A DNA stretch of 59,015 nucleotides from Burkholderiales bacterium (lineage in GTDB: Bacteria > Pseudomonadota > Gammaproteobacteria > Burkholderiales > Burkholderiaceae_C). Numbering within the stretch: the stretch's first letter is position 1; each line of letters begins with the position of its first letter. Below are positions 17,994 to 35,126 of the stretch, in pieces. The notes beneath the pieces are model-generated. The model made no database searches. It worked only from the letters and a program-made list of their open reading frames with translations, and had not been told where the DNA came from. The DNA is taken from positions 1 through 59,015 of the forward strand of contig RXJV01000093.1 of NCBI GenBank assembly GCA_003963075.1, given 5' to 3'. A program made the translations under genes and the position numbers.

Positions 17994-20900
17994 TCAGCGC
18001 TTCGTGATTAGCTGGGACACCGGATACCCGCTCATCGTTCCCACGGCGCCATACCCGGCGATGCTGGTGGCCGTCATGCAGACGGCGCCCATCATGCCGC
18101 CAGGGGCGCAGTCGGCGTAGGCCAGCTTGGCAATCTGGGCCGCGGTCAGTGGTGTGAATGGGTTGTCTGGCACAAAGATCAGGATCGAGGAGTTCTGGAT
18201 GCTGGTGGCATAGCGCGCGGGAAAGCCGGCATACACGCCCCCCACGCCAATGCCCGCTGCCGGCGACCAGCCATCACCACCGGCGGCCGTGGAGAAGGTG
18301 CTGGTGGTGTTCTTCGCAAAACTCGCGACGAAGCGACCCCCGAGCGTGCTGTCGCGCCAGGTCTGGAGCTGGTAGGTCAGCGGAACCTGCGTCATGTCGA
18401 AGAACGGCGCACTGCCGATGGCGTTGCCACTCATGGACTCGGTCAGGCGACCGGTGAGGCCAGTGATGGCCCCGGTGGTCGAGTTGAGCACGAAGGAGCC
18501 GGTGAAGATCGAGTCCCGAGGCTGGGTGTCGGGCTCGTAGAAGCGGGTCATGACATCGAACGTCGTCAGCACCTCGACGGGCGCCGAAGTGCTGCCGGTG
18601 CCGACCGCATTGCTGGCGGCGAGCGCGAATGTGTAGCCGGCGCAGGTACTGGGGCAGCTCACGGTGACTGGCAGTGCGGTCCCCTGGGCCGTGATGCCCG
18701 CCGGGCTGGAGGTGACGGTGTACCGTGTGATGGCGCTGCCACCGCTGCTCACGGCGGTGGCCGTTACGAGCACCTGGCTGATGCCGTTGCCCAGGCTGGC
18801 CGTGACCCCAGTGGGTGCGGCGGGCGCCGACATACCGGGCGGAAGTTGAACCGCCAGGGTCAAGGTGACCTGTGGTGCCGCGTTGTAGCTGCCGTTTCCG
18901 GCCTGGTTGGCCGAGATCACGCAGTCTCCCAAAGCGCTTGCGGTCACCAGACCGCTGCCGGTGGCGACGCTGCAGACGGACGGGCTCAGGCTGGCCAGGT
19001 TCACGGGCAGGCCGGACGTGGCCGTTGCATTCACGGTGGCGCTGCTGCCCAGGGTCAGCACCGGCGCAGCGCCGAAGCTGATCGTCTGGTTGGGATCGGG
19101 GGCGATGGCAATCGACTGCGTCACGGTTGCCGCCGCCGCCCACGTGGCATTGCCCGGTTGGCTGGCCGCGATGGTGCAGGTGCCGGGCGACAGGCCCGTT
19201 ACCACCCCTGTGCTGCCGCCCACCGAGCAGTTGGTGCTGAGGCTGCTGAACGTGACCGGCAGGCCCGAGCTGGCGGTGGCACGCACGGTGCCGGTGCTGC
19301 CGACGCGCACCGCCGGGGCCGCGCCGAAACTGATGGACTGTAGGGCTGCCGTGACGGTCAAGCTCTGGGACAACTGTGGGGCTGCAGCCCAGAGCGAGTC
19401 TCCTGGTTGGTCGGCGGCGATGCGGCAGATGCCTGGCACAGATGCCGTGACCACACCGGTTGCGGAGGCCACGCTGCAAATCGAAGGCGTCAGGGTGCTG
19501 TAGACGACCGGCAGGCCCGAGCTTGCTGAGGCCCGGACCGTGGCGCTGCCACCCGCAGCGAGCAGGGGGGCTGCGGCGAAGCTCAGGCCTTGCGGCATGC
19601 CGCCCACCGAGAGGCTCACGGTGACCTGGGCGGCGGGCGCCCAGGTGCCGTCGCCGGATTGACGGGCCGCGAGGGTGCAGGTGCCCGCCATCAGCCCGGT
19701 CACGAGCCCGCTGCTGCTGCCGACGCTGCAGATGGCCGTGCTCAAGCTCGCGTATGTCGCGGGGAGGCCGGAGGTCGCTGTGGCTCGCACCGTGGTCTGG
19801 CCGTTGACGACGACGTCGTTCGGCGGGGCGAACGACAGGGTTTGAGGCGCGACCGTGTTGCTCAAGGTCTGCACCGCCTGGGGAGCCGCCGCCCAGGTGG
19901 TGGTGCCGGGCTGGCTCGCCGCGATGGTGCAGGCGCTCACGGTCAGGCTGGTGACCAGCCCGGTGGTGGTATCGACGGTGCAGGCTGCCGGCGTCAGCGT
20001 ACTGTAGGAGACGGCCAGGCCGGAGCTCGCCGTTGCGTGCACGGTGGCCGTGCCGCCCATGGCGAGGGCCGGGGCGGCAGCAAAGCTGACGCTCTGGGCC
20101 TGGCCAGCCACGGCGAGGGTCAGCGTGGCCTGCGGCGCGGCAGCCCAGCTGCCATTGCCTGCTTGGGTGGCCACCAGCGTGCAATTGCCGATCAGCAGCC
20201 CCGTGACTCTGCCTGCTGGCGTCGTGGTGCATGTCTGTGGCGAGGCGCTGGCGAAGCTGACCGGCAACCCGGAGCTGGCCGTGGCCAGGGCCGTGGACGC
20301 ACCGTTCACGACCAAGGTGGGCCTGGCGCCGAAGCTGAGGGTCTGCGCCATGCCGGCCACGGGCAGGCTCAGCACGACCGGCGCTGCGGCGCTCCAGGTG
20401 CCATCACCCGCCTGGCTGGCCTGCAGCAGGCATTGGCCCGCGCTGAGCGGGGTGATGCCGCCGCGGGTGGCATCCACGGAACAGATGACCGGCGTCAACG
20501 AGGTGATGGTGGCCGGCAGTCCAGAGCTGGTGGTGGCCCGCGCGAGGGCCGGGCTGCCCACGGTCAGCGTGGCGGGCGTGGCGTTCAGCGTGATGGCCTG
20601 GGTGGCGCGGCTGACCGTCGTGGACTGCTGGGCTTGCGGCGCTGCCGCCCAGAGGGTGGCACCGGCCTGGTCGGCAGCCACGGTGCAGGTACCCGCTGCC
20701 AGCGCCAGCACCGCACCCGAAGGTGAGACGCTGCAGACCTCGGGCGTCAGGCTGCTCCAGCGAAGTGCCAGGCCGGAACTGGCGCTGCCGGTCGCCGCGG
20801 TGCTGGTACCCACCAACAGCGGCGCGAGTGCGGCCACGGTGATTTTCTGGGCCGCACCCCTGATGGTCACTGTCTGAACCACCGGTGCGGCCGGGCTCCA

Positions 20901-21470
20901 CTGGCTGTTGCCGGGCTGCTCGGCGGCTACGGCGCAGGTGCCGGCGGCCATGGCCACGACCACGCCACGGTCTGGGTCCACGCTGCACAGCTCCGGCGTC
21001 TGGCTCGAATAGCGCACGGCCTGGCCCGAGCTCGCGGCGGCCGCGGCTGCGACCGTGTCGCCCACGACGAGCGCGGGCAGGGTATCGAACGCCAGGCTTT
21101 GGGTGCGGCCCGACACGTGGATGACCGGGGTGGCTTGGGGTGCGGGAGCAAAGCGGTCGTTGCCCCCCTGGAAAGCGCTGATGCTGCAGTCACCAATGCT
21201 CACGCCCTGCACCAGCCCGGTCGCAGCATCCAGGGTGCAAACGGCGGGCGTCAGGCTGCTGAGGCCCACGGACAGGCCGGACGACGCCGTGGCCGACACC
21301 GTGGCCGTGCTGCCAACCTGCAGCGTGGGCGCGTCGCCGAGGCGGATGCTTTGCGCGTCGTCGCGCACGCGCGGGCCGCTATCGCCGGCGGCACCGCCGC
21401 CGCAGGCGGTCAGCACTAGGGCGCCGGCAAGGGCGGAGCCCACGGCGCGGAGCAGGGGAGTCAGAACCAT
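17994..21470 (-). CDS. Large lipoprotein: ten two-Cys repeats plus a C-terminal domain shared with the neighbouring PEP-CTERM protein
   Basis: This 1158-aa protein begins with a lipoprotein signal (LTAC, Cys23). Residues 40-879 are ten tandem ~84-residue immunoglobulin-like repeats, each with the pattern SSGLP...C-S-V...G-x-C-x-I-A and two cysteines. Residues ~880-973 are fibronectin-III-like. Residues 974-1158 form a domain clearly homologous to the PEP-CTERM protein at 23697, including the motif ADCAPGGMMGAVCM. ATG 21470 overlaps the stop of the TonB receptor gene, so the two are translationally coupled; the frame is open upstream but lies inside the receptor. I infer a surface-exposed, extended stalk presenting a (possibly copper-binding) head near the receptor. 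No known family name fits the head domain. Confidence 0.8.
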   Translation of the reverse strand: MVLTPLLRAVGSALAGALVLTACGGGAAGDSGPRVRDDAQSIRLGDAPTLQVGSTATVSATASSGLSVGLSSLTPAVCTLDAATGLVQGVSIGDCSISAFQGGNDRFAPAPQATPVIHVSGRTQSLAFDTLPALVVGDTVAAAAAASSGQAVRYSSQTPELCSVDPDRGVVVAMAAGTCAVAAEQPGNSQWSPAAPVVQTVTIRGAAQKITVAALAPLLVGTSTAATGSASSGLALRWSSLTPEVCSVSPSGAVLALAAGTCTVAADQAGATLWAAAPQAQQSTTVSRATQAITLNATPATLTVGSPALARATTSSGLPATITSLTPVICSVDATRGGITPLSAGQCLLQASQAGDGTWSAAAPVVLSLPVAGMAQTLSFGARPTLVVNGASTALATASSGLPVSFASASPQTCTTTPAGRVTGLLIGNCTLVATQAGNGSWAAAPQATLTLAVAGQAQSVSFAAAPALAMGGTATVHATASSGLAVSYSTLTPAACTVDTTTGLVTSLTVSACTIAASQPGTTTWAAAPQAVQTLSNTVAPQTLSFAPPNDVVVNGQTTVRATATSGLPATYASLSTAICSVGSSSGLVTGLMAGTCTLAARQSGDGTWAPAAQVTVSLSVGGMPQGLSFAAAPLLAAGGSATVRASASSGLPVVYSTLTPSICSVASATGVVTASVPGICRIAADQPGDSLWAAAPQLSQSLTVTAALQSISFGAAPAVRVGSTGTVRATASSGLPVTFSSLSTNCSVGGSTGVVTGLSPGTCTIAASQPGNATWAAAATVTQSIAIAPDPNQTISFGAAPVLTLGSSATVNATATSGLPVNLASLSPSVCSVATGSGLVTASALGDCVISANQAGNGSYNAAPQVTLTLAVQLPPGMSAPAAPTGVTASLGNGISQVLVTATAVSSGGSAITRYTVTSSPAGITAQGTALPVTVSCPSTCAGYTFALAASNAVGTGSTSAPVEVLTTFDVMTRFYEPDTQPRDSIFTGSFVLNSTTGAITGLTGRLTESMSGNAIGSAPFFDMTQVPLTYQLQTWRDSTLGGRFVASFAKNTTSTFSTAAGGDGWSPAAGIGVGGVYAGFPARYATSIQNSSILIFVPDNPFTPLTAAQIAKLAYADCAPGGMMGAVCMTATSIAGYGAVGTMSGYPVSQLITKR
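18834..21353 (-). repeat. Ten tandem ~84-aa protein repeats inside the lipoprotein gene
   Basis: Ten in-frame units of about 252 bp encode residues 40-879. Each starts with a Q-x-[IL]-x-F-like strand, contains ATASSGLP or a close variant, two conserved cysteines about 16-17 residues apart, and ends in a W/Y-x-AAPQ segment. The units have diverged in DNA sequence, so the array is old rather than a recent expansion. Confidence 0.85.
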
Positions 21471-23692
21471 AGGCTCACCGAGGTGTTGAAGGAGCGGCCG
21501 GCGCCGGGCACCACAGTGCCCCAGGGGATGCCGGCCGAAGTCATCGAGCGGCCCTGCCCGAGGTAGGCCCCGCCGAGCGGCGAGGCGTAAAGGCGGTTGA
21601 ACAGGTTGTCGATGGCGAAATCGATCCGGGCGTGAGGCCACTCGTAGCTGGTGCGCAGGTGCGCAAGCGCGTAGCCAGGCGTCGTCATCTCATTGCGCAC
21701 ATGCGAGACGCGCTGCTTGGCCGCCACGGCCTGAAGTTCCAGCACGCCGGTCCAGCCGCCACGCTGATGCGTCACCGACAGCTTGAGCTGGTCTGGCATC
21801 AAGTTGTAGAGGCCGTCGCCTGTGGCGAGGTTGTGCCCCCGCAGCACCGCCATCTGGAACGCCGCATCCCAGGTGCCGCTGTCGCCGCGAGCCAGCCGCT
21901 TGCTGCCTGACAGGTCAAGCCCGCGCAGGCGTGCCGGCGCGTTGGCGTACTGCAGCAGCACGAATCCGTTGGTCGTATTGACATTGGCGGCGCTGCACTG
22001 CCCGAAGTCACACCGTTTGGCGTCCATGAAGTCACGCACGTGGGTGGCGTAGGCCGCGAGCTTGAGCAGCCAGTCCTCGCCAGTCTCGTCCTGCCAGCTC
22101 GCATTGAGGGCGAGCGTGTGGGCAATCTCCGGTCGCAGCCCCGGCTGACCGACATAGCCATTGCCGTCACCGACGAAGTTGTTCATCAAGGCGGCCATCG
22201 GCTGCCTCGACCACGGGTAGCGCTGGTAGAGATTGGGCGCGTGGCCCTTGCGCGCGAGGCCGATCTCGTAGGTCTGGCCGGCATCGGGGTGGTAGCGCGC
22301 GGTGATCACCAGGTCCAGCAGGGTGTCGCTGCGACGGTGCCGTGCAGCGTTGAACGCGGCAGCCTCATTGCCCCAGATCGCGCCCAGGCCGTTGTCATAG
22401 CCTTGCACGGTGGCCGCATCGGTCACGACCTGATCGGCGCGCAGGCCGGCGAGCGTGGTCCAGTCGCTGCGCCAGTGGCCTTCCCACTCGGCAAACGTGC
22501 CCGAACGCAGGCGGCGTCCGTCGTCGATGTTCCAGAAGGCATTCGGCCCCATGGAGCCGCCCACGGGAGGCCACCAGTCGTACAGCACATACGTCTGGCG
22601 TTCGATGCCCACGCGCAGCAGATCGGCGTCGCGCAGGTCGATGTCGGCTTCGGCCTGCAGGCCGCGGGTGGTCGCCTCGGTGAGCATGGGCATGCCGTAG
22701 CCGTAAAAGTAGCGGTCAGGGCCCATGTCCATCGCATGGTTCACGTTCTGTTGCCACCACCGCGCCTTCAGCTGCCCCCAGTCGAACTGCCCCGTGTAGC
22801 GCAGGTTGGTCTGGCGGCTGCGGTTGTCCGTCATGTCCATGCGTTGGTTCGGGAAACCTTCGAAACCGATGTGCTGGCGGCCGAGCGTGAGTTGCACGAG
22901 ATGACCGGCGTTGCGCCACGCGGCGCGCAATTCCTCGTTGCGTCCCCGGTAGCTGCTTGAGGCGACCTCGTCGCCCGGGATGACGCGCCCAGTCTCCGAG
23001 CCCGGCACGGCGGGCTTGAAGGCCGCTGCCGCCCGGTAGTTCTGCTGGCGGGACGAAGCTGCCGTGAAGCTCAGGCTCAGCTGTTCAGTGGCCAGGCCGG
23101 CCGACGCGCTCATGCCATGTGCGTGGCCGTTTCTGCGCCAGAAGCTGGTGAGCCGGGCGTGGGTCAGCGGTGGTTCGTCGAAGCCGGCGAAGCGCGGCGG
23201 GGTGGCCTCGACCTGCACCGTGCCGCCGATGCTGTCGCCGCCGACGCTGACCGGGCTGATGCCGGCATAGACGGTCACGCGAGCCACGTTGGACGGGTCG
23301 ATGTATGAGAGCCCCGGGTTCATGTGGTTGGGGCAGGCTGCCACCAGGTCCATCCCATCGACCTGGGTGCGCAGCCGGTCGTCGGCCAGGCCGTGGATGG
23401 CGGGCAGGCTAGAGACGCCGCCCGCCCCGTAGAGGCTGACGCCGGGCAGGTCCTGCAGCAACCGCGCGGTATCTCCGGTGGCCGAGCGGTTGCGCGCGAG
23501 CTGGCCGGCGCTGCTGCGCGAGGTGAAGAGGCCGTCCTCGCGTGCCGTGCCGGTGATGACCTGACGGGGCAGCGGCTGCGCCACCGGCGCGCTGGCGGCG
23601 CCCGGCGGGGCCTCGGGCCCGGCCTGGGCCCATGCAGGTGCAGCAGCCATGACCAGGAACCCGGCCAGCAGTTGGCACAGAGGACGGCACAT
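21461..23692 (-). CDS. TonB-dependent copper receptor (OprC/NosA type)
   Basis: This 743-aa outer-membrane receptor has a signal peptide (ends AWAQ), a plug domain (VITGTAREDGL, DTARLLQDLPGVSLYG, IHGLADDRLRTQVDGMDL) and a 22-strand barrel ending in the aromatic SVSLWF. The plug contains C120-P-N-H-M124 followed by NPGLSYIDPS, and the barrel contains H319-A-M321; these match the CxxxM and HxM copper ligands known for Pseudomonas OprC. Copper transport is therefore inferred with good support. An alternative GTG start lies one codon earlier (23695). It follows the 23697 PEP-CTERM gene closely and overlaps the repeat lipoprotein gene by 10 bases. Confidence 0.92.
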   Translation of the reverse strand: MCRPLCQLLAGFLVMAAAPAWAQAGPEAPPGAASAPVAQPLPRQVITGTAREDGLFTSRSSAGQLARNRSATGDTARLLQDLPGVSLYGAGGVSSLPAIHGLADDRLRTQVDGMDLVAACPNHMNPGLSYIDPSNVARVTVYAGISPVSVGGDSIGGTVQVEATPPRFAGFDEPPLTHARLTSFWRRNGHAHGMSASAGLATEQLSLSFTAASSRQQNYRAAAAFKPAVPGSETGRVIPGDEVASSSYRGRNEELRAAWRNAGHLVQLTLGRQHIGFEGFPNQRMDMTDNRSRQTNLRYTGQFDWGQLKARWWQQNVNHAMDMGPDRYFYGYGMPMLTEATTRGLQAEADIDLRDADLLRVGIERQTYVLYDWWPPVGGSMGPNAFWNIDDGRRLRSGTFAEWEGHWRSDWTTLAGLRADQVVTDAATVQGYDNGLGAIWGNEAAAFNAARHRRSDTLLDLVITARYHPDAGQTYEIGLARKGHAPNLYQRYPWSRQPMAALMNNFVGDGNGYVGQPGLRPEIAHTLALNASWQDETGEDWLLKLAAYATHVRDFMDAKRCDFGQCSAANVNTTNGFVLLQYANAPARLRGLDLSGSKRLARGDSGTWDAAFQMAVLRGHNLATGDGLYNLMPDQLKLSVTHQRGGWTGVLELQAVAAKQRVSHVRNEMTTPGYALAHLRTSYEWPHARIDFAIDNLFNRLYASPLGGAYLGQGRSMTSAGIPWGTVVPGAGRSFNTSVSLWF

Positions 23693-23696
23693 CACG

Positions 23697-24410
23697 TCAG
23701 GCCCTGCGCGAGCGGCGGCGGGCCACGCTGCCTATCAGGCCCAGACCAGCCAGCATCAGCGCATAACTGCCAGGTTCCGGCACGGCTGCCGCAATGGTCT
23801 GCGAGAGGGGGTAGCCATCCATCGTGCCGGTGGCGCCGTAGCCCGCCAGCGACGTGCCCGTCATGCAGACGGCACCCATCATCCCGCCCGGGGCACAGTC
23901 GGCGTAGGCCAGCTTGCTGATCTGGGCCTGGCTGAGCAGGGCCGTCGGCGTGTCAGGCACGAAGATCAGGGCGTAGGCATTGCCCGGGTTGCTCGAGGCC
24001 TTGGGAAAGCCGGCATAGATGCCGCCCACGTTCACACCAGTCTGCGGCGACCAGTTGTCCGCAGGGCCGCCGCATAGCGCGGTCGAGCAGAAGGTGGCCG
24101 TCGTGCTGTTCTTGAACACGGCGGCGAAGGTGCCACCCAACGTTGCGTCGTACCAGCTCTGCAGCTGGTAGTTCAGAGGCAGCCAGGTCATGGTCCCGGC
24201 TGAGGTGCCGGTCATGGACTCGCTCAACAGGCCTTTCAGGCCGGTGACGGTGTGGGTGTCCTCGTCGTAGGTGAAGCTGCCCTGGAAGATCGAGTTCTTG
24301 GGCTGGGTCTGGGGTTCGAGCCAGGTCGTGGTGATGGTGTAGTCGGTCTCATGGGCCTGGGCGGCGCCCAGCGTTGCCAGCAGCAAGGCGGCAAGTGCAA
24401 AAGATTTCAT
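23697..24410 (-). CDS. PEP-CTERM protein homologous to the lipoprotein head domain
   Basis: This 237-aa exported protein has a signal peptide ending AAQA, leaving His20 as the predicted mature N-terminus (HETDYT). Its whole central part aligns with residues 974-1158 of the lipoprotein at 17994: EPQTQPKNSIFQGSF, LPLNYQLQSWYDATLGG, NVGGIYAGFP, KLAYADCAPGGMMGAVCMT and GYGATGTMDGYPLSQ. The C-terminus is a PEP-CTERM anchor (VPEPGSYALMLAGLGLIGSVARRRSRR). It lies immediately before the copper receptor gene (2-4 bp). The shared motif C-x4-MM-x3-CM suggests metal binding, which is inference. The family itself is not one I can name. Confidence 0.85.
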   Translation of the reverse strand: MKSFALAALLLATLGAAQAHETDYTITTTWLEPQTQPKNSIFQGSFTYDEDTHTVTGLKGLLSESMTGTSAGTMTWLPLNYQLQSWYDATLGGTFAAVFKNSTTATFCSTALCGGPADNWSPQTGVNVGGIYAGFPKASSNPGNAYALIFVPDTPTALLSQAQISKLAYADCAPGGMMGAVCMTGTSLAGYGATGTMDGYPLSQTIAAAVPEPGSYALMLAGLGLIGSVARRRSRRA

Positions 24411-24428: not shown

Positions 24429-25292
24429 TCAAAGGGCCGAGTCACGGCGGCGGCGCAGGGCGAGCAGGCCGGCGCCCGCAGCCATCAGCAGCCAGGTCTG
24501 GGGTTCGGGCACGGCAGAGACCGCCGACACGCCGAGCGTCAGCGCGTAGGCCTTGGTCGAATCGGCCAGGCTCTTGCCGGCCAGGTTGTTGCCACCGACA
24601 AAGACCGTGTAGTCGCCGGCTCCGAGGGTGAACGTGCCCGACACGGTGCCGTTGGCCGTGTTGCTGGCGGCAGAACCGCGGTAGATGAAGTTGCTCAGCG
24701 CCGACGCTGTGCCAGCCGGGTCGCCGTCGCCGCCGACCGACCAGTTGCCCAGCGCGTTCCAGCTGCCGTTGGTGGCCAGGTAGTTGTAGCCGGCGCCGGC
24801 AGTGGCCTGCGCGAAGCTGCTGCGCCAGGCCTCGGAGGCGACCGCGAAGTCATGGTCGGCACTGGTCTGCGGCGCCTTGAACGGCGAGAGTGCAGCCAGC
24901 CCCTGGTACACCGAGAACGCCGGCGTCAGGCCGCTGCTGTTGCGGGCCGACTCGGTGATGGTGACCGTCATCGCGTTGTCCAGGTGGAAGCGGAAGGCCT
25001 TGCCCTTGTGGCTGTCGCCCAGGTAAAGGTCGTCCGTGCCAGTGCCGCTGACGAAGGCCGCCTCGTCGGTACGGGGGGTCGTGGCCAGGGCGCTGTTGAA
25101 CACGAGGTTCAGGTCCGACGCATCGGCCCAGCCGTAGTTGCTCGTGACCGATTGCGTGGCAATCGAGGCGAAGCTGCCGTTCGCGAGCGTGCCGAAATCG
25201 CGGCCGCTGTAGCTGATGTGGGCCAAGCTGCTGGCCGAAGCGGCCAGCAGGGTGCTGAGGGCAACGGCCTTCTGAAGGGAGGATTGGGTCAT
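24429..25292 (-). CDS. PEP-CTERM protein with predicted mature N-terminal His
   Basis: This 287-aa exported protein has a signal peptide ending SSLA, so His25 (HISYSGRDFG) would be the first mature residue. The body is beta-rich with VFNSALATTPRTDEAAFVSG, AFRFHLDNAMTVTITESA and TFTLGAGDYTVFVGGNN, and it ends in a PEP-CTERM anchor (VPEPQTWLLMAAGAGLLALRRRRD). A ribosome-binding site (AGGACA) supports ATG 25292. It is 18 bp upstream of the other PEP-CTERM gene and so likely starts the transcript for the receptor and lipoprotein. No enzymatic motif is visible. Copper binding through the N-terminal His is conjecture. Confidence 0.85.
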   Translation of the reverse strand: MTQSSLQKAVALSTLLAASASSLAHISYSGRDFGTLANGSFASIATQSVTSNYGWADASDLNLVFNSALATTPRTDEAAFVSGTGTDDLYLGDSHKGKAFRFHLDNAMTVTITESARNSSGLTPAFSVYQGLAALSPFKAPQTSADHDFAVASEAWRSSFAQATAGAGYNYLATNGSWNALGNWSVGGDGDPAGTASALSNFIYRGSAASNTANGTVSGTFTLGAGDYTVFVGGNNLAGKSLADSTKAYALTLGVSAVSAVPEPQTWLLMAAGAGLLALRRRRDSAL

Positions 25293-25383: not shown

Positions 25384-25755
25384 TCAACTCCGCGGCGGTG
25401 CCCGAGGCTGAGCTCGTGGCCATGGCGCTGCAGGCGTGGGGCGACGGTCACGCCGCAGCGGCGCCGTGGTCGCGTGCGTCTGTCCCACGGACGCGCCTGG
25501 CGCTGCGGGCATGGGCAGCACAGGGAGGTGCAGCGTGCAATATGCACAGTGCTCGAAGGCGCGGGTCAGTTCGGCGTCTTCCCGCGGATCCGACTGGGCG
25601 CCGATTGGCGTCTGCGCGCTTGTTGAGAAGCACAGGTCGGCCCAGCGCATCCCGCGGCTCAAGCTGACAGCATGCGAAATCGCAGGCGCCAGCGCCGCCG
25701 CCACGAAGGCCGCGACGGCGAGCCAGACCGTGAGCCCGACGTGGCGACGGTTCAT
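25384..25755 (-). CDS. DUF2946 family protein (HCxxC motif), copy 1 of 3
   Basis: This 123-aa exported or single-pass protein starts MNRRHVGLTVWLAVAAF and has one hydrophobic helix (about 8-24). DUF2946 features are the LCFSTSAQ segment and H69-C70-A-Y-C73 in FEHCAYCTLHLPVLP, a likely metal- or redox-active Cys pair. DUF2946 genes commonly occur with copper chaperones and TonB receptors, as here. The frame opens further upstream (25869) but that overlaps the next gene; ATG 25755 is more natural. Function is unknown, with a copper link inferred from the neighbours. Confidence 0.82.
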   Translation of the reverse strand: MNRRHVGLTVWLAVAAFVAAALAPAISHAVSLSRGMRWADLCFSTSAQTPIGAQSDPREDAELTRAFEHCAYCTLHLPVLPMPAAPGASVGQTHATTAPLRRDRRPTPAAPWPRAQPRAPPRS

Positions 25756-25801
25756 GGCCAGCGCCTGCAGGCCGGGCACTGCAGCGTGGTTGTCGGTGGC
25801 G

Positions 25802-26245
25802 TCATCGGGCGTCGGCGGGCAGCAGCCGGACTGGGGCACGCACGTCCAGCGTTTCCGTCTTGCTGCCATCGCGTTCGATGGTCAGCGTGACGGCAAGCGT
25901 GTCGCCGGCTTTCAGCGGCTGCTTCAGGCCGGTCAGCATCAGGTGGTAGCCCCCAGGGCTGAGCTTGACGCTCTGGCCCGCTGGCAACGGCAGGGCCGGC
26001 ACGGCACGCATGCGCATCACGCCGTTGTCCATGCGCATTTCATGAATTTCCACGCTGTTTGCCACCGGCGACGTGCCGCCGACCAGGCGCGCATCCGTGG
26101 GCGATCTGAGTTCGACGAACAAGCCCGTGGCCTGCTGGCCAGGAACGGTGGCGCGCACCCAGGGGTCGCGGGCGGTGGTTTGCGCCTGCAGGCTCCCAGC
26201 AGCGAGCCCCAGGGTCACCGCGAGCATGACGAGGCGCCGGCTCAT
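25802..26245 (-). CDS. Periplasmic copper chaperone PCu(A)C
   Basis: This 147-aa periplasmic Cu(I) chaperone has a signal peptide (ends SLQA) and the exact family copper site H-x10-M-x21-H-x-M: His68, Met79, His101 and Met103. In known systems PCu(A)C proteins pass copper to the CuA site of cytochrome oxidase together with SCO proteins. Both SCO and oxidase genes are in this window at 2-6640. The start is supported by a strong GAGGGGGA ribosome-binding site, and ATG 26245 overlaps the stop of the upstream small gene by 4 bases. Confidence 0.95.
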   Translation of the reverse strand: MSRRLVMLAVTLGLAAGSLQAQTTARDPWVRATVPGQQATGLFVELRSPTDARLVGGTSPVANSVEIHEMRMDNGVMRMRAVPALPLPAGQSVKLSPGGYHLMLTGLKQPLKAGDTLAVTLTIERDGSKTETLDVRAPVRLLPADAR

Positions 26246-26463
26246 GGTTGTTCCCCCTCGGGCCGAGGCGATGCGGCGGCCAGCCTCTGGGGTTGGGGGG
26301 GCGCCGTCGTTGCAGCGGTTGGGACGGGATCGGGCTGAGCGGCGAAGTGCTGGCCGACCCACAGCGACGTCTCGAAGATGGCCAGCACGGCCAGCAGATG
26401 TGCAGCCAGGAACCAGCGCAAGCGGTTGGCCTGGGCGATGTCTTGGGGGCGGGCTGCGCTCAT
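26242..26463 (-). CDS. Small single-pass membrane protein, unknown
   Basis: This 73-aa protein has a polar N-terminus (MSAARPQDIAQANRLRW), one hydrophobic helix (about 18-38) and a Pro/Ala-rich tail. A GGGGAGG ribosome-binding site precedes ATG 26463. It is coupled by 4-base overlaps to both neighbours (PCu(A)C downstream, the 26460 gene upstream). I do not recognise a family; tight coupling to the copper chaperone suggests a role in the same process. Confidence 0.7.
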   Translation of the reverse strand: MSAARPQDIAQANRLRWFLAAHLLAVLAIFETSLWVGQHFAAQPDPVPTAATTAPPQPQRLAAASPRPEGEQP

Positions 26464-26711
26464 GCCGCCTCCCCGTGGATTGGGCTGCGGACCTGCAGTT
26501 CATCGCGGCGGGCGCGCTGGCAGTTGCAGGCCGGCACAGAGACCCGGACCGCGTTGGCCGCAGGTGCGGCGTGGGGCGATGCGGGGCGGAGTTGGCCCGT
26601 GGCCATGAGGTAGCCGGTCCAGGCGGTCCACAGCACCATGGCGGCAGCGGTGGCAAGGTTGAGGTGAAAGGCCAGCACCATCAGGCGGGCCAGGAGATCG
26701 CGGGTGTTCAT
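26460..26711 (-). CDS. Small single-pass membrane protein, unknown
   Basis: This 83-aa protein (from MNTRDLLARL) has one hydrophobic helix (about 8-32: VLAFHLNLATAAAMVLWTAW) and a basic C-terminal half with a CNC motif in VPACNCQRARRDELQ. An alternative ATG lies 7 codons upstream (26732). It overlaps the next gene by 4 bases (ATGA), forming a coupled unit with the 73-aa protein and PCu(A)C. No family was recognised. Confidence 0.65.
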   Translation of the reverse strand: MNTRDLLARLMVLAFHLNLATAAAMVLWTAWTGYLMATGQLRPASPHAAPAANAVRVSVPACNCQRARRDELQVRSPIHGEAA

Positions 26712-26796: not shown

Positions 26797-27207
26797 TCAG
26801 GCGGTTTGAGGCGGGGCGCGCGGCGCGCCCGGTGCGGGCAGCGGGCGCAATGCGGCGCTGCAGACGCGTGCCGCGGTGGTGTGAAGGGAGGGGGCGGGCT
26901 GCGTGCGCGGTGGCTGCAGCACAGGCGGCGGGGCCATGCCCTGGGCGGTCAGTACGCAGGCCCAACAGGCGGCGTGGCTGCCCGCTGATTCAGGGGCTGC
27001 GGGCTTGTCGGCGTTCGTGTCGGCTGCACTGCTCAGCCGTCGTGAGCCGTTGCTGCTGCAGATGTCGGCCACGCCGGCGCCCAGGCCGGCCAGGGCCATG
27101 CGGGCCGAGGTGTAGGCTGCCGTTCCCTGCACGCACAGCATGCACAGCACCAGCAACGCCAGCAGCAGGGGCTGGCGCTTGCGGAGGCGGGCGAGGGCGG
27201 CGTTCAT
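26797..27207 (-). CDS. DUF2946 family protein (CxxC motif), copy 2 of 3
   Basis: This 136-aa protein has a basic start (MNAALARLRKRQ), a hydrophobic signal/anchor helix (12-32) and, after an Ala/Asp-rich spacer, HAAC81-W-A-C84VLTAQG, the Cys pair typical of DUF2946. The C-terminal tail is Pro/Ala-rich. Its frame opens earlier (27282), but ATG 27207 gives a sensible N-terminus. It is the first gene after a 153-bp gap following the PepSY gene and may begin the PCu(A)C transcription unit. Function is unknown. Confidence 0.78.
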   Translation of the reverse strand: MNAALARLRKRQPLLLALLVLCMLCVQGTAAYTSARMALAGLGAGVADICSSNGSRRLSSAADTNADKPAAPESAGSHAACWACVLTAQGMAPPPVLQPPRTQPAPSLHTTAARVCSAALRPLPAPGAPRAPPQTA

Positions 27208-27360
27208 GGTCGGCGGCGTGGAGACTCTAATCAGCGCTGGCGTTACGAGATTTGATGTGGCGCAGGGCACCACCAACGGCACGCCGATCCGACGCGGCAG
27301 CGTGCGCTGCGACCCGGAAGCTGTGCGCGCGGAGGGCAGACGAGCGGGATGCCGGCGCCT

Positions 27361-28530
27361 TCATGCGGGCCTCGTCGCTTGCCGCCGCAGCGGCTTGCGG
27401 CGCACTGCAGCCAGCCTGCCGCGCCGCTTGCGCAGCCAGATCACCGTGCCGGTGACGGCCAGCAGCAGCGGCAGCAGGCCTGCTGCGGCAATCAGCACCC
27501 GGCCGGCGAGACCGAGCACCTGGCCGTTGTGCAGCGGCAGCAGCCAGTCGAAGACGGTGTCACCGGGCAGGTTGCGCTCGAAGCGGCGGTCAACGAGCAG
27601 CGCGCCGCTCTGGCGATCCACCCAGACCTCGGAGCGGCCCTCGGCAGCACCCACGCGGCCGGGCTCGCCCAGGCTGACGCGCCAGTGCGGGCCGGAGGCG
27701 CCTGGCAGCCACAGGCAGAGCAGCCGCGCACCGGGCGCATGCCGGAGCGCTGTGGCCACCGCCGCATCGCCATCGAGGTGCGGTGGCGCCAAGGGCTCGC
27801 TCCAACGCGGTCGCGGGCTCATCGTCGCGCCGCTGGCGTTGAGCACGCTGCGGGCCTCACCCGGAAAGGTCATGGCCGCCCCGGTGAGGCCGAGCATCGC
27901 CAGCAGCAGGCTGGCGTAGAAGCCCGCGCTGCGGTGCAGGTCGAAGTGCAGCCTCAGGCCGCGCGCGCCGGGCTTGATGCGCAGGGCCTGGCGCAGGCCC
28001 GCGCGGCTGCGCGGCCACCAGAGCACCAGGCCGGTGATGGCACTGGCCAGCAGGAACAGGCCCGACAGCCCCACCAGCACGCGGCCACGCTCGCCCAGCA
28101 GCAATTGCATGTGCAGCGTGTAGACGGCATTGCCCAGGTTGCGGCGGCCGAAGTCGGCCGTCGGAACGGCCTCGCGCTGGCCCAGCACGCGGGCGCTGGC
28201 CGGATCGACCAGCAGCTCCCACATGCGCGAGTCGTCGCTGGCGCTGGGTGTCAGCCAGACGTGGTGAACATCCTGCGGGCCGCTGGCCGGGAACACCGAA
28301 TGCACAAAGCGATGTGGCTCGGCGGCTTGCGCGGCGGCCAGCACCTCGGCCAGCGGCCGGGCCGGGCCGGCGCTTTGCGGTGTGGCCCAGTCCGGATTGA
28401 GCATGCGGTCGATCTCCGGGCCGAAGGCGAGATAGCTGCCGGACAGGCCCACCAGCACCCACACCGTGGCCAGCACAAGGCCGGTCCAGCGGTGCAGCCA
28501 CAGCCAGGCGGTGCGCAGCTTGATGCCCAT
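27361..28530 (-). CDS. PepSY-associated transmembrane protein (reductase-like)
   Basis: This 389-aa inner-membrane protein has the PepSY_TM layout: an N-terminal helix after WLWLHRWTGLVLATVWVLVGLSGSYLAF, a periplasmic domain, then GLSGLFLLASAITGLVLWWP, an LHFDLHRSAGFYASLLLAMLGLTGAAMTF helix and a C-terminal helix near AGRVLIAAAGLLPLLLAVTG. Such proteins are paired with siderophore receptors and are thought to reduce ferric or metal complexes in the periplasm. ATG 28530 follows the receptor stop by 2 bp, so it is co-transcribed with the 28533 receptor. Confidence 0.9.
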   Translation of the reverse strand: MGIKLRTAWLWLHRWTGLVLATVWVLVGLSGSYLAFGPEIDRMLNPDWATPQSAGPARPLAEVLAAAQAAEPHRFVHSVFPASGPQDVHHVWLTPSASDDSRMWELLVDPASARVLGQREAVPTADFGRRNLGNAVYTLHMQLLLGERGRVLVGLSGLFLLASAITGLVLWWPRSRAGLRQALRIKPGARGLRLHFDLHRSAGFYASLLLAMLGLTGAAMTFPGEARSVLNASGATMSPRPRWSEPLAPPHLDGDAAVATALRHAPGARLLCLWLPGASGPHWRVSLGEPGRVGAAEGRSEVWVDRQSGALLVDRRFERNLPGDTVFDWLLPLHNGQVLGLAGRVLIAAAGLLPLLLAVTGTVIWLRKRRGRLAAVRRKPLRRQATRPA

Positions 28531-28532
28531 GC

Positions 28533-30605
28533 TCAGAAGGCCGTGCCGGCCGACAGGGTCCAGCGCCGGGGCGACTCGATCAGCACCGCATAGCCCTCCA
28601 GGCTGTTGAGGATCTTGCGGTTGCCGAGGTTGTCGACATTCAGCGCCAGCCGCCAGCCGGAGAGCCTGGTGGCCAGCAGCGCATCCAGCCGGGTGTAGGC
28701 CGGGAGCTTGAAATAGGCCAGGCCGGGCTGGGCCGCCTCGCGCGTGCCCACATGCACGGCGCCCAGGCCCAGGTCCCAGCCGGGCGCCGGGTTCCACAGC
28801 GCCCAGGCGTTGCCAGACCGGCGTGCCACGCCGACCAGCTGCTGGTTGAGCTGGGCCGGGTCGGTGTCGCGGGTGACCTTGGCGTCCATGCTGCTGGCGT
28901 TGGCGGTGAGCTTGAGCGTCGGGCTCAGCCGGCCGGCAAGGCTGAACTCGGCGCCCCGGCTGCGCTGCTCGCCGTTGGTGATGCTCAGCGTGGGGTTGGC
29001 CGGGTCACCGGTCAGCACATTGCGTTTGCGGATCTCGAACAGCGCGGCCGTGGCCTCCAGGCCAGGCAGCAGCGTGGCCTTGACGCCGACCTCGTGCTGG
29101 CTGCCACGCTCGGCCTTGAACAGGCTGCCGCCCTGGGCCCGGCCGCCCAGGTTGGGCGAGAAGGACTGGCTGAAGCTGTAATAGACCGAGGTGCCGGGGT
29201 TGAGCAGGTAGAGCGCGCCGAGCCGGGCGGTGGTGGCGTTCTCGGTCTGGCTGTCGCTGGCACTGCCGGCGCTGGCCGGCAGCGCGCGGCTGCTGGAGCG
29301 CACGCGCTCCTGGCGCAGGCCGGCCAGCAGGCGCCAGTCGCCCAGGGTGATCTGGTCTTGCAGGTAGAGGGCCACCGTGCGCCCTGCGCGCTCGGTGCCG
29401 CTGGCGTCGCCGATGGCATAGGGCGGCGTCGAGCCGGGCTGGAAGCGGCGCGGGTCGACGCTGTCCAGGCTGTTGTAGACGCCGCTGTAGCTGAAGACCG
29501 AGCGCTGCAGTTCCAGGCCGGCCAGCCACTGGTGGCTGACGCCGCCCGCGGCCCAGCGCCCGCTGAGCTCGGTCTGGCTGGCATCGTTCGTCGGGTTGTC
29601 GCGCACCTGGGCATAGGCCACGCGGCCCATCGCGCCGAGGCTGTTGCCATCGGCCAGCGGGTTGGCCGAGAAGGCCGGGCTGACGGACACCATGCCGCGC
29701 TTGGCCCAGCTGGTCAGCAGGGCCTGGCGGAACACCAGGCCAGCGCCGAGCTGCTGCTGCAGCTCCAGCCGGTGGCTGATATTGGTGTTGTTCAGCCAGG
29801 TCCAGGGCTCGCTGAGCGTCGTGCTGAACGGCAGGTCGGCCACGCCCGGCACCGCCAGCAGGCCGTTGGACCAGCCACGCCGTTCGGTGCGCTGGAATTC
29901 GCCCTCGTAGGTGAGGCGGGTGTCGGGGCCGGCCTGCCAGCGCAGCACCGGCGCGACCAGCGCGTTGCGGTTTTTCTCCAGGTCGATCCAGGTGCGGCCC
30001 TGGTCCGCGGCGAGGTTCAGCCGACCGGCCCAGGCGCCGCTGCTGCGGTTGGCGTCGACGGTGACGCGGCCGCTGTCGAAGCGGTCCCAGCTCAGGTCCA
30101 GCCGGGTGAAGTCCCGCGCTTCGGGCTGCTTGGTGACGGTGTTGACCGCGCCGCCCGGCTGGGCCGCGCCGTAGAGCACCGAGGCCGGGCCCTTGACGAA
30201 CTCGACGCGCTCGACATTGGCCAGGTCGCGCGGCGTGTAGACCTCGGCGATGCGAAAGCCATTGCGGTAGTTGACCCCGGCGTTCGAGAAGCCGCGGATG
30301 TTGAAGTACTGCGACGTGCTGCTGCCATAGCCGACGATGGGCTGCACGCCGGCCACCAGGTCGGCCAGCGCGTTGGGGTGGCGCAGCGCGCGGTCGCGCA
30401 GCAGCTCGGCATCCACGCTCTGGACGCTGACCGGCGTCTCCTTCAGCGGCGCCGCCAGGCGGGTCGCGGAGCTGGCCTCGGTGGCGAGGTAGTTGCGTTC
30501 CGCGTTGCCGCTGACTTCGACGCGCTCCAGCGCTGTCGGGGCGGTCTGCGCAAAGGCCAGGCCGGCGGCCAGGGCGCAGGGGGAGAGGATGAGGTGGCGC
30601 ATCAT
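28533..30605 (-). CDS. TonB-dependent siderophore-type receptor
   Basis: This 690-aa outer-membrane receptor has a signal peptide (ends GLAFAQ), a plug domain with the siderophore-receptor signature (ETPVSVQSVDAELLRDRALRHPNALADLV, YFNIRGF, VEFVKGPASVLYGAAQPGGAVNTVTK) and a barrel ending RWTLSAGTAF. The start is one of two consecutive ATGs (30605/30602) with an AAGG site upstream; the frame is open further but that segment has no signal sequence. Iron-siderophore uptake is the family expectation; given the neighbours, another chelated metal is possible. The PepSY protein is translationally adjacent. Confidence 0.92.
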   Translation of the reverse strand: MMRHLILSPCALAAGLAFAQTAPTALERVEVSGNAERNYLATEASSATRLAAPLKETPVSVQSVDAELLRDRALRHPNALADLVAGVQPIVGYGSSTSQYFNIRGFSNAGVNYRNGFRIAEVYTPRDLANVERVEFVKGPASVLYGAAQPGGAVNTVTKQPEARDFTRLDLSWDRFDSGRVTVDANRSSGAWAGRLNLAADQGRTWIDLEKNRNALVAPVLRWQAGPDTRLTYEGEFQRTERRGWSNGLLAVPGVADLPFSTTLSEPWTWLNNTNISHRLELQQQLGAGLVFRQALLTSWAKRGMVSVSPAFSANPLADGNSLGAMGRVAYAQVRDNPTNDASQTELSGRWAAGGVSHQWLAGLELQRSVFSYSGVYNSLDSVDPRRFQPGSTPPYAIGDASGTERAGRTVALYLQDQITLGDWRLLAGLRQERVRSSSRALPASAGSASDSQTENATTARLGALYLLNPGTSVYYSFSQSFSPNLGGRAQGGSLFKAERGSQHEVGVKATLLPGLEATAALFEIRKRNVLTGDPANPTLSITNGEQRSRGAEFSLAGRLSPTLKLTANASSMDAKVTRDTDPAQLNQQLVGVARRSGNAWALWNPAPGWDLGLGAVHVGTREAAQPGLAYFKLPAYTRLDALLATRLSGWRLALNVDNLGNRKILNSLEGYAVLIESPRRWTLSAGTAF

Positions 30606-30684
30606 TGAGCAAGCCTTGAGCGGTTGAAGTGTCGGAACGGCGTGGTTTGGTTGGCGCTGCGAGCGCCGGGTGCCGGGCATCGCG

Positions 30685-31638
30685 TCAGTAGGCGTAGTGC
30701 AGCCCCGCCGACAGGCTGCGGCGGGGTTCGATCTGCAGCCCGTTGACGCGTTGGTAGACCGGCAGTTGCACAAAGGCATAGGCCTTGAGCCGATCGCTCA
30801 GCGTGGCGGTCACGCCGGGGCTCAGATAGGCGAGGGTCGAGCCCGAATTCGCCACGTCGGCATTGGCGCCAGACTCGCGGCGTTCGCTGCGCAGGTTGAG
30901 CTGCAGCTGCGGCACCACCGGGCCGCTGCCCACATAGCGCAGGCCCAGGCTCAGGTTGAGGCCGGATCCGGGTTTGAAATCGTCCTTGCGGTTGAGCGGC
31001 AGCTGCAGCAAGGCCTGGGCGAAGTAGTCGATGTTGCGGGCCAGGCTGCCGAAGCGGTAGGCGCCAAGCAGCAGGTCGGTGGAGCCGGTGCCGGGCTGCA
31101 GGCCCCGGTCCAGCGCCTGGCCGGCCTGGGGGCCGGTCGCGAAGTTCACGCTGCTGCGGCCGGTGGGCAGCTTGAGCCCGAACTGCAGGCCCCAGCTGCG
31201 GTCGGCCGCGAGGCCCAGGTAGCGGGCCAGCAGGCGCACATCGCCCAGGCTGGACGAGCGCGACGTGGACAGCTCGGTATCGCCCGCGGCCACCGTGCCA
31301 TGGCTGCGCAGCACATAGGGCAGCTGCAGCGCGAGACCCCAGTCGGGCGAGATGCCGTAGTCCAGCGTGAGCGTGGTGAGGTGGTTGGCGGTGTTGCGCT
31401 GGATTTCCTGCTCGGCCGGGAAGCTGATGCTGCCCCGGTCCACGCGGCGGGTGCCGCTGCGCAGCTCGTCCTGGTTGAAGTAATCGTGCCGCAGGTCGAG
31501 GCTCAGGCCGGTGGCCGATGACAGGCCCTGGCTGACCCAGTCGGAGCTGAGCGTGCAGCCGCAGCTGGAGCAGGCCCAGGCGGCGGGCAGGGAGGTTGCG
31601 AGCAGCGCGGCGAGGGTGGTGCGTGTGAAGGCATGCAT
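30685..31638 (-). CDS. Outer-membrane channel-like protein with mature N-terminal CxxCxC
   Basis: This 317-aa protein has a signal peptide ending AAWA, so the mature chain would start with Cys23 in C-S-S-C-G-C-T-L, followed by a beta-barrel-like sequence (DYGISPDWGLALQLPYV, WGLQFGLKLPTGRSSVNF, LSAGLHYAY). It resembles outer-membrane proteins of the MetA-pathway/phenol-degradation transporter type. The lipobox is not canonical, so the Cys residues may bind metal rather than lipid. A strong AAGGAG site precedes ATG 31638. It sits between a siderophore receptor and ycnI. Metal binding and transport are inferences. Confidence 0.75.
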   Translation of the reverse strand: MHAFTRTTLAALLATSLPAAWACSSCGCTLSSDWVSQGLSSATGLSLDLRHDYFNQDELRSGTRRVDRGSISFPAEQEIQRNTANHLTTLTLDYGISPDWGLALQLPYVLRSHGTVAAGDTELSTSRSSSLGDVRLLARYLGLAADRSWGLQFGLKLPTGRSSVNFATGPQAGQALDRGLQPGTGSTDLLLGAYRFGSLARNIDYFAQALLQLPLNRKDDFKPGSGLNLSLGLRYVGSGPVVPQLQLNLRSERRESGANADVANSGSTLAYLSPGVTATLSDRLKAYAFVQLPVYQRVNGLQIEPRRSLSAGLHYAY

Positions 31639-31658
31639 GGAGGTCTCCTTCTTCGGGT

Positions 31659-32180
31659 TCAGTGGGCGTGTTCGGCGGCCGGGCGTGCCGGCACGACCTT
31701 GAGCCGGGCCGCCGGCGCGGCCACGGCCTTGCCGGCGGCGGGCACCTCGGCCCAGTTCCACTCGCCCTTCACGCAGACCTGGCGCACCTTGAACCACAGC
31801 TCGCCGGGCTCGGCGATGACGGTCGCGCGCACGCTGAACTCGTCGTACCAGGCGTCCTGCAGGAAGTCGGCCTCGGAGTTGGCCGTCCAGCGCACCTCGG
31901 CGAGTTCGTCGGCGATGGTCTTGCCATGGCTCTCATAGGGCTTGGCGAGCGGGGCGCGGGTGGTGGTCAGCGTCCAGCCCGCCTTGGGCACGGGCTTGGC
32001 GCCGCGCAGGCCTTCGGGCAGGGTCAGGATGATCTGCCGGGTGGCCGAGCCGTCGCAGCCGTGGCCAACGCGCAGCACGGCCTTGTAGGGCTTGCCGGTT
32101 TCGGCTTCGGGGGTCTCCAGCGTGATGTGGGCCTGGGCGGCGCTGGCCGCGGCCAGCAGCAGGGCGAGGGATTGCTTCAT
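31659..32180 (-). CDS. YcnI family copper-binding protein (DUF1775)
   Basis: This 173-aa exported protein has a signal peptide ending AAQA and His18 at the predicted mature N-terminus (HITLETPEAE). YcnI proteins bind Cu(II) through that terminal His (a single-His brace) with a nearby Glu and Trp; the VGHGCDGSAT loop (38-47) and Trp98 in VRWTANSEA are present, as is WYDEFSVRATV. ATG 32180 has an AAAGG site. It is located between the CxxCxC outer-membrane protein and a TonB receptor. The His brace here is seen in sequence; copper binding is known for the family. Confidence 0.92.
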   Translation of the reverse strand: MKQSLALLLAAASAAQAHITLETPEAETGKPYKAVLRVGHGCDGSATRQIILTLPEGLRGAKPVPKAGWTLTTTRAPLAKPYESHGKTIADELAEVRWTANSEADFLQDAWYDEFSVRATVIAEPGELWFKVRQVCVKGEWNWAEVPAAGKAVAAPAARLKVVPARPAAEHAH

Positions 32181-32191
32181 GGTGGATGCCT

Positions 32192-34660: not shown

Positions 34661-34739
34661 GAGGAAGCAGATCGGAGTCGGGCCGCGGCCCCGGCGGGGC
34701 GGCGGCGTTCGCCGGGCGAGGCCCGGCACGGCAGGGGAC

Positions 34740-35126
34740 TCAGATCGACGCGGGTGGCGCGCGGGCGCTGGCGGGGCGCCAGGCGTGGGCGGTGACCGGG
34801 GCGGTCCAGAAGCGCTCGGGTGCTGCGGTGACCAGGTCGGCCCGCAGCGCAAACTCGGGGGCCGGTGGCGGCATCGCGAGGTCGGCCGCGGCCAGATGGC
34901 AGGCCGGGCAGTGGCCCTGGGCCAGCAGATCCAGCGCGGCCTCGATGGGCTTGGGCTTGCTGGCCTGATTGGCCGTCGGCGCACGGCAGACATCCTGCCA
35001 GGCCGAGAAATCGCCCCGCGCATGGGCCAGCGCCGCACTGATGCCCGGCGCCAGCATGCCCAGCAGCAGCACGGCCAGCCACCACCAGGTTTGGCGGCGG
35101 GCTTGAGCGCGGGTCAGTGCGGGCAT
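34740..35126 (-). CDS. DUF2946 family protein (HCxxCH motif), copy 3 of 3
   Basis: This 128-aa protein starts MPALTRAQARRQTWWW with one signal-anchor helix (13-35), then WQDVCRAP and H72-C73-P-A-C76-H77 in AQGHCPACHLAAADL, a CxxC with flanking His. The C-terminal third is Pro/Ala-rich. It is the 5'-most gene of the minus-strand island; its start is separated from the divergent thioredoxin-like gene by 85 bp, which probably carries the island's leading promoter. Function is unknown; linkage to metal uptake genes is shared with the other two copies. Confidence 0.8.
   Translation of the reverse strand: MPALTRAQARRQTWWWLAVLLLGMLAPGISAALAHARGDFSAWQDVCRAPTANQASKPKPIEAALDLLAQGHCPACHLAAADLAMPPPAPEFALRADLVTAAPERFWTAPVTAHAWRPASARAPPASI

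Follow-up and report, generated by a model that had tools for sequence, protein, structure and literature searches.

Gene arrangement and the shared domain

A stretch of 59,015 nucleotides from a Burkholderiales bacterium (assembly GCA_003963075.1, contig RXJV01000093.1), referred to here as the window, carries on its minus strand a gene for a TonB-dependent receptor of the OprC type, flanked by two genes whose products share one domain. The first of the two in the direction of transcription encodes a 237-aa PEP-CTERM protein (23697-24410) composed of a signal peptide, a 188-residue copy of the domain (23790-24353) and a sorting tail. Its stop codon is one base away from the GTG start of the receptor gene (21461-23695), which in turn overlaps by 10 bases with the gene of a 1158-aa lipoprotein (17994-21470). 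The lipoprotein starts with an ATG at 21470 and has a lipobox (LTAC) whose Cys is encoded at 21404, some ten Big-like repeats and a C-terminal copy of the domain (residues 969-1155, 18006-18566). Signal-peptide ends were judged by eye throughout. Directly upstream on the same strand are the gene of a second PEP-CTERM protein, PEP2 (24429-25292), and an open reading frame (ORF) with a DUF2946 domain (25384-25869), and the order of transcription is DUF2946 ORF, PEP2, PEP-CTERM domain protein, receptor and lipoprotein. An earlier interpretation made from the sequence alone (the sequence-only reading) had described a receptor between two domain genes, tightly packed on one strand, as was found here. 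The three genes it named are real, but the set was probably incomplete, as PEP2 and the DUF2946 ORF had been left out.

A motif search recovered nine of the lipoprotein repeats, spaced roughly 84 residues apart, and one more that it missed was seen in the translation, giving the ten counted earlier. The Pfam Big-like and Big_2 models matched the repeats above cut-off, and a weak fn3 match was below it. The tail of the 23697-24410 protein matched PF07589 with 36.7 bits (cut-off 20.7) and two PF09721 exosortase genes above cut-off were identified in the genome, the combination of tail and enzyme expected for an exosortase substrate.

Residues 969-1155 of the lipoprotein and 22-206 of the PEP-CTERM protein were aligned, and 57% of the columns (108 of 191) were identical (E 2e-66). 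The homology proposed by the sequence-only reading was thus confirmed, and all four shared segments it had listed are present in the alignment. The full-length domain was matched at just these two places in the whole genome; nine weaker matches (35 bits or less) were confined to query residues 147-237, eight starting at residue 176 or beyond, and consisted chiefly of the sorting tail. None of the 87 aligned members of the domain family reached the cut-off of any Pfam or NCBIfam model, in keeping with the earlier remark that the domain could not be named. Sequence searches of the PDB with the domain gave no convincing match (best E 0.16, and 0.054 with a profile). The PEP-CTERM copy was modelled with AlphaFold2 using 87 sequences, and the model is mostly beta with a predicted local distance difference test score (pLDDT) of 97.4 and a predicted template modelling score of 0.92. 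A Foldseek comparison of this model with 350,542 PDB chains yielded nothing at E<=0.001 (best E 0.14). Within the limits of this PDB comparison the predicted fold is unrecognised, and membership in a known family was rejected on the Pfam/NCBIfam, PDB sequence and PDB fold searches together.

The 87 rows of the domain alignment (A2) consist of 85 of 106 copies from the loci described below and the two window copies. Methionines M47, M159, M164 and M178 were found in all 87 rows and M158 in 84, the invariance of the letters GMMG..CM being partly built in because a search pattern contained them; M47 and M178 fall outside both search patterns. Methionine accounts for four of the 18 invariant columns compared to 4.0% of all residues (P 8e-4), and no His is invariant. 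In addition, 22 low-scoring copies retain Met at most of the same positions. The Cys/Met segment C-x4-MM-x3-CM (domain residues 153-164) is encoded at 23862-23897. Its two cysteines, C153 and C163, are each present in 86 rows and both are absent from the same single row; two more copies outside the alignment also have neither. This joint loss suggests a disulfide, which would leave the methionines as candidate ligands. A histidine brace was also considered, as the mature N-terminus of the window PEP-CTERM copy, judged by eye, is a His, and was rejected because this residue is not kept elsewhere.

The receptor and its linkage to the domain

A profile was built from 49 of 79 near-full-length relatives of the receptor (alignment A3, <72% identity). 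Among PDB structures it matched OprC first, with E 1.5e-33, and the next protein was PhuR with 1.4e-15. In the profile alignment the plug motif CPNHM (CxxxM, 23321-23335) falls on C143/M147 of OprC and the motif HAM (HxM, 22730-22738) on H323/M325, while a GMPM stretch of the receptor aligns with a Met-rich segment of OprC. The CxxxM-HxM site has been shown to bind copper in OprC (PMC8610252). CPNHM was present in 80/83 domain-linked receptors and HxM in 82/83; a motif was lacking only where a contig end truncated the receptor (two cases) or the ORF was short or broken (one case). The genome contains 37 plug stretches matched by Pfam, and the window receptor alone has CxxxM. With the OprC site complete, the earlier assignment to a copper-type receptor was supported. 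The receptor scored 100.4 bits with the copper model TIGR01778 (cut-off 472.45) and is therefore not filed as a member, and this model found no match in the genome at E<=1e-100. Judged by its site residues, the receptor may nevertheless work like OprC.

The relationship of the domain to such receptors was analyzed in 85 loci, comprising the window, eight loci from genomes of its bacterial family and 76 from named genome contigs. The named loci were retrieved with two peptide patterns, one including GMMG..CM, and are the distinct ones among the best 80 of 90 matches. Three pairs among the 85 loci are duplicates, so that 80 of the 83 receptors are distinct, and some loci come from one genome. 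Many belong to metagenome bins, which may be mislabelled. Adjacency was first counted on stop-to-stop frames and then recounted by domain positions. In 83/85 loci a receptor related to that of the window has a copy of the domain directly beside it on the same strand (gaps between stop-to-stop frames <=123 nucleotides), as expected of a bipartite receptor whose partner is encoded together with it. Counting copies above 90 bits, the domain was only upstream of the receptor in 39 of the 83 loci, only downstream in 33 and on both sides in 11. One locus (L092) has an extra copy on the opposite strand. The gene order of the window recurs in Roseateles cellulosilyticus (L030).

Divergent tandem paralogues of the domain (approximately 50-90 bits) were seen upstream of the PEP-CTERM domain gene in L034, L035, L037, L038, L044, L054, L058, L059 and others. 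They do not have the EPxTQP motif, yet carry Met at most of the invariant positions.

In 399 genomes of the family the domain was detected in nine by a single-sequence search, which ruled out that it is a general gene of the family, and the receptor in 45 (E<=1e-60). All nine are within the 45, an overlap with P 1.4e-9 when kinship is ignored. Among 72,556 plasmid records only one, from Ideonella, contains the domain. The remaining 36 receptor genomes have no domain, and 31 of their loci (L135-L165) were examined; in the other five the receptor was in pieces or at a contig end. Domain-less receptors were sought in the window's own family only. A tree of 86 receptors was calculated that included 30 of these 31 loci (one was in short pieces) and seven of eight OprC loci tried (one was not recovered). 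All 49 receptors with the domain group in one clade (SH-aLRT 99), outside which lie the 30 without it; this was a quick tree that came with a warning of long branches meeting. Besides receptors of the window's own bacterial family, the clade with the domain includes records under the labels Myxococcales, Anaeromyxobacter and Desulfuromonadales, many of which are metagenome bins. The domain thus tracks the receptor lineage rather than the species.

The attachment of the domain was variable. Of 107 copies above 90 bits, 52 have a PEP-type tail and 55 do not, the anchor being labelled by the tail that follows the domain. The domain is at the C terminus in 51/55 copies without such a tail, and a crude search, with some false matches, found a lipobox pattern in 43/55. 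On a tree of the 87 domains the anchor requires seven changes, at least four of which are forced by supported branches, and the window lipoprotein copy sits within a mainly PEP-CTERM part. Set against the single receptor clade, these seven changes indicate that, as read from the trees, the anchor has been swapped repeatedly and the partnership with the receptor kept.

Copper-related neighbours and a third surface protein

Two upstream DUF2946 ORFs are present in the window, the one already mentioned (25384-25869, minus strand), whose true start is probably inside the ORF, and a second at 26797-27282 on the same strand. They matched PF11162 with 47.0 and 38.6 bits (cut-off 23.7), and the distance between their CXXC and RAPP motifs is 44 and 45 residues, respectively. 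In CruR of Bordetella this spacing is 45, the CXXC motif is reported to sense copper and shut off the genes behind it, and the operon partners named are OprC-type receptors, PcuAC and MbnPH-like genes (PMC9426467). The window ORFs resemble CruR in three features, namely a DUF2946 match above cut-off, a separation of about 45 residues between CXXC and RAPP, and a position upstream of copper genes. Between them, also on the minus strand, is an ORF for a PCuAC copper chaperone (25802-26656, PF04314 129 bits), which again probably starts inside the ORF.

Similar neighbours recur in other genomes. Six recurrent neighbour clusters, among those found, were annotated, from one member each except for PCuAC. 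Within 7 kb of the domain, PCuAC was found in 17 loci, the DUF2946 cluster in 13, MbnP in 12, a MauG-type di-heme peroxidase in 11 and a Crp-like regulator in seven. The sequence-only reading had proposed that neighbourhoods be inspected for OprC-type receptors, and the homologous domains do adjoin them in 83/85 loci, with PCuAC, DUF2946/CruR, MbnP and MauG-type genes recurring nearby. No known family was found for the domain, and its homologues are linked to copper-type receptors; either a known non-metal family or a lack of such linkage had been named beforehand as speaking against the idea.

These neighbours bear on whether the surface proteins sequester copper for protection instead of feeding the receptor. 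Surface metal-binding proteins can act as buffers, as is generally known. We regard this as quite improbable here, for the domain is coupled to an importer-type receptor, the CruR-like ORFs belong to a type that shuts genes off upon copper addition in Bordetella (PMC9426467), and the six annotated clusters include no efflux or oxidase gene.

Further genes with copper markers are located on the same strand at 26797-35126. A PepSY_TM gene (27361-28797) follows a TonB receptor of siderophore type (28533-30779). A further TonB receptor (32192-35038) has a third DUF2946 ORF (34740-35126) at its head, in which 45 residues separate CXXC and RAPP.

Homologs of PEP2 were identified in 18 loci, in 13 on the same strand upstream of the receptor, in two downstream and in three on the opposite strand. 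In 17/18 a His directly follows an AxA-like signal-peptide end, as judged by eye; in the window the codon of this mature N-terminal His is at 25220. W31 and H71 are invariant in the 16 of 18 homologs that were aligned (A4), and H1 is invariant there by construction, since A4 was cut at that His. The PEP2 model is of moderate quality (pLDDT 73.6). Only four PDB folds matched it at E<=0.001, and all of them are MopE or CorA (4BZ4, 2VOV; E 1e-5 to 4e-5), with TM-scores of 0.42-0.47 by query length. No sequence match of PEP2 to CorA/MopE was found up to E 10. The likeness is therefore one of fold only; PEP2 is not filed as a member, and any copper site it has need not be theirs. CorA/MopE of methanotrophs are surface-located and copper-repressible, and a role in copper acquisition has been suggested (PMC3912023). 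Their copper site consists of two His and a kynurenine formed from Trp, and for PEP2 the sequence offers H1, H71 and W31 as candidate counterparts. In contrast to CorA/MopE, PEP2 is PEP-CTERM anchored, and the shared domain itself matches neither protein. Given this predicted fold and the conserved His at the mature N-terminus, PEP2 may be a surface copper protein akin to CorA that occurs outside the methanotrophs.

Proposed function and comparison with known systems

Taken together, we consider it likely that the genes serve copper acquisition and that the OprC-type receptor cooperates in this with dedicated surface partners that carry a new accessory domain. Since the domain is nearly always beside the same kind of receptor, it is probably a receptor partner that catches copper at the cell surface. 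The sequence-only reading had called this a two-component surface copper capture system. The copper link is well supported, but "two-component" is not quite right, as the domain is only upstream of the receptor in 39 of the 83 loci and only downstream in 33, and PEP2 is a third surface protein here.

We propose that the domain would sit outside the cell, attached through PEP-CTERM sorting or, where it follows a stalk of Ig-like repeats, through a lipid anchor. Its two cysteines would form a disulfide, and its invariant methionines would bind copper, most likely Cu(I), for presentation to the methionine track and the CxxxM-HxM site of the receptor, which would import the metal with TonB energy. 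It is from the invariant methionines in the alignment that we infer capture and hand-over by the domain itself. PEP2, with its predicted CorA/MopE-like fold, may supply a further copper site at the surface. When copper is abundant, the CruR-type leader ORF probably shuts the genes down, and onward transport of copper in the periplasm would fall to PCuAC.

The main rival explanation is that the domain binds no metal ion. It would instead serve as a docking site for chelated copper, for a chalkophore or for a secreted copper protein, or it would act as a gate on the receptor. TbpB and HpuA are partners of this kind for iron. OprC has been reported to interact with azurin, which is a secreted copper protein (PMC10957091), and another copper receptor, CrtA, is reported to import chelated copper (PMC12914433). 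The domain matched no known metal-binding fold, and its cysteines, lost as a pair in one of 87 rows and in the two further copies, resemble a disulfide and not a metal site. We nevertheless judge docking or gating to be unlikely, because four methionines are unchanged in every row and mostly kept in the 22 low-scoring copies, and because the receptor has the ion-binding site of OprC.

Several observations weigh against copper capture by the domain. All 31 domain-less loci (searched with the profile of 87 members) contain a related receptor, mostly with a CxNHM plug; receptors of this kind can thus function without the domain. Conversely, in L051 and L062 PCuAC is the neighbour of a PEP-CTERM domain protein, and the genomes yielded no receptor of this family at E<=1e-30. 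Part of the Met motif (GMMG..CM) was built into the peptide search patterns. The heme model TIGR01785 gave the window receptor 118.9 bits, more than the copper model, and at 1e-20 it matched 49/49 of the receptor family against 48/49 for TIGR01778; as both scores are far below cut-off, the family models leave the substrate unsettled. A heme receptor is thought unlikely, given that OprC is a far better PDB profile match than the heme receptor PhuR and all four OprC copper ligands are present. No experiment on the system was found. Finally, a GGDEF/EAL gene for cyclic di-GMP turnover is within 7 kb of the domain in 16 loci (e.g. L031:4943-7309), which is as frequent as the copper neighbours and does not point to copper. 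It would suit a matrix or biofilm adhesin that merely happens to be located in a copper locus; Big-like repeats, like PEP-CTERM proteins, are often encountered among matrix proteins and adhesins. That reading seems to us barely credible in view of the single receptor clade, the labels of the loci from several bacterial groups, the same-strand adjacency in 83/85 loci and the exchange of anchors without loss of linkage.

The proposed copper-acquisition locus was compared with known systems. The receptor resembles OprC/NosA (TIGR01778; PDB 6FOK) in having the CxxxM and HxM ligands at the same profile positions and an aligned Met-rich stretch, and differs in its score far below the TIGR01778 cut-off, its separate clade and the surface proteins alongside. 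The Bordetella CruR-CrtA-PepSY_TM operon shares with the window a DUF2946 leader ORF, a TonB receptor and a PepSY_TM gene, with PCuAC also present in the window (PMC9426467, PMC12914433). Unlike the window receptor, CrtA is reported to have no conserved Cys or Met, and no surface partner is mentioned in the passage on the operon (PMC12914433). In concept, the nearest parallel among the papers found is ZepA, an exported zinc-binding PEP-CTERM protein for which an interaction with an outer-membrane receptor has been proposed (PMC10957091). ZepA, compared here by its description, binds zinc through histidine ligands, whereas the domain has no invariant His.

Bipartite receptors such as TbpB-TbpA and HpuA-HpuB consist of a surface lipoprotein and a TonB receptor encoded together, as in the window, and differ in that they take iron from host proteins. 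To our knowledge no copper example exists. Neither a bipartite copper receptor nor the system itself appeared among the listed titles and abstract openings of open-access papers, a scope that leaves out most subscription papers and all bioRxiv preprints. The more specific proposal, that the domain represents a so far undescribed fold, extracellular and binding Cu(I) around four invariant methionines, and that together with its receptor, whose methionine track it loads with copper, it makes up the first bipartite copper receptor, with interchangeable lipid and PEP-CTERM anchors and here a CorA-like third surface protein, has in our estimate about an even chance of being correct.

How Gram-negative bacteria collect scarce extracellular copper is poorly known (PMC8610252, PMC12914433), and OprC and CrtA are among the few characterised copper importers. 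The domain offers a compact test case, with 188 residues, a confident model and four invariant methionines. If the proposal is true, a surface partner specific to its receptor would extend the two-part logic of iron uptake to copper, and a function would be provided for unnamed surface proteins in genomes labelled Betaproteobacteria, Myxococcales, Desulfuromonadales and others.

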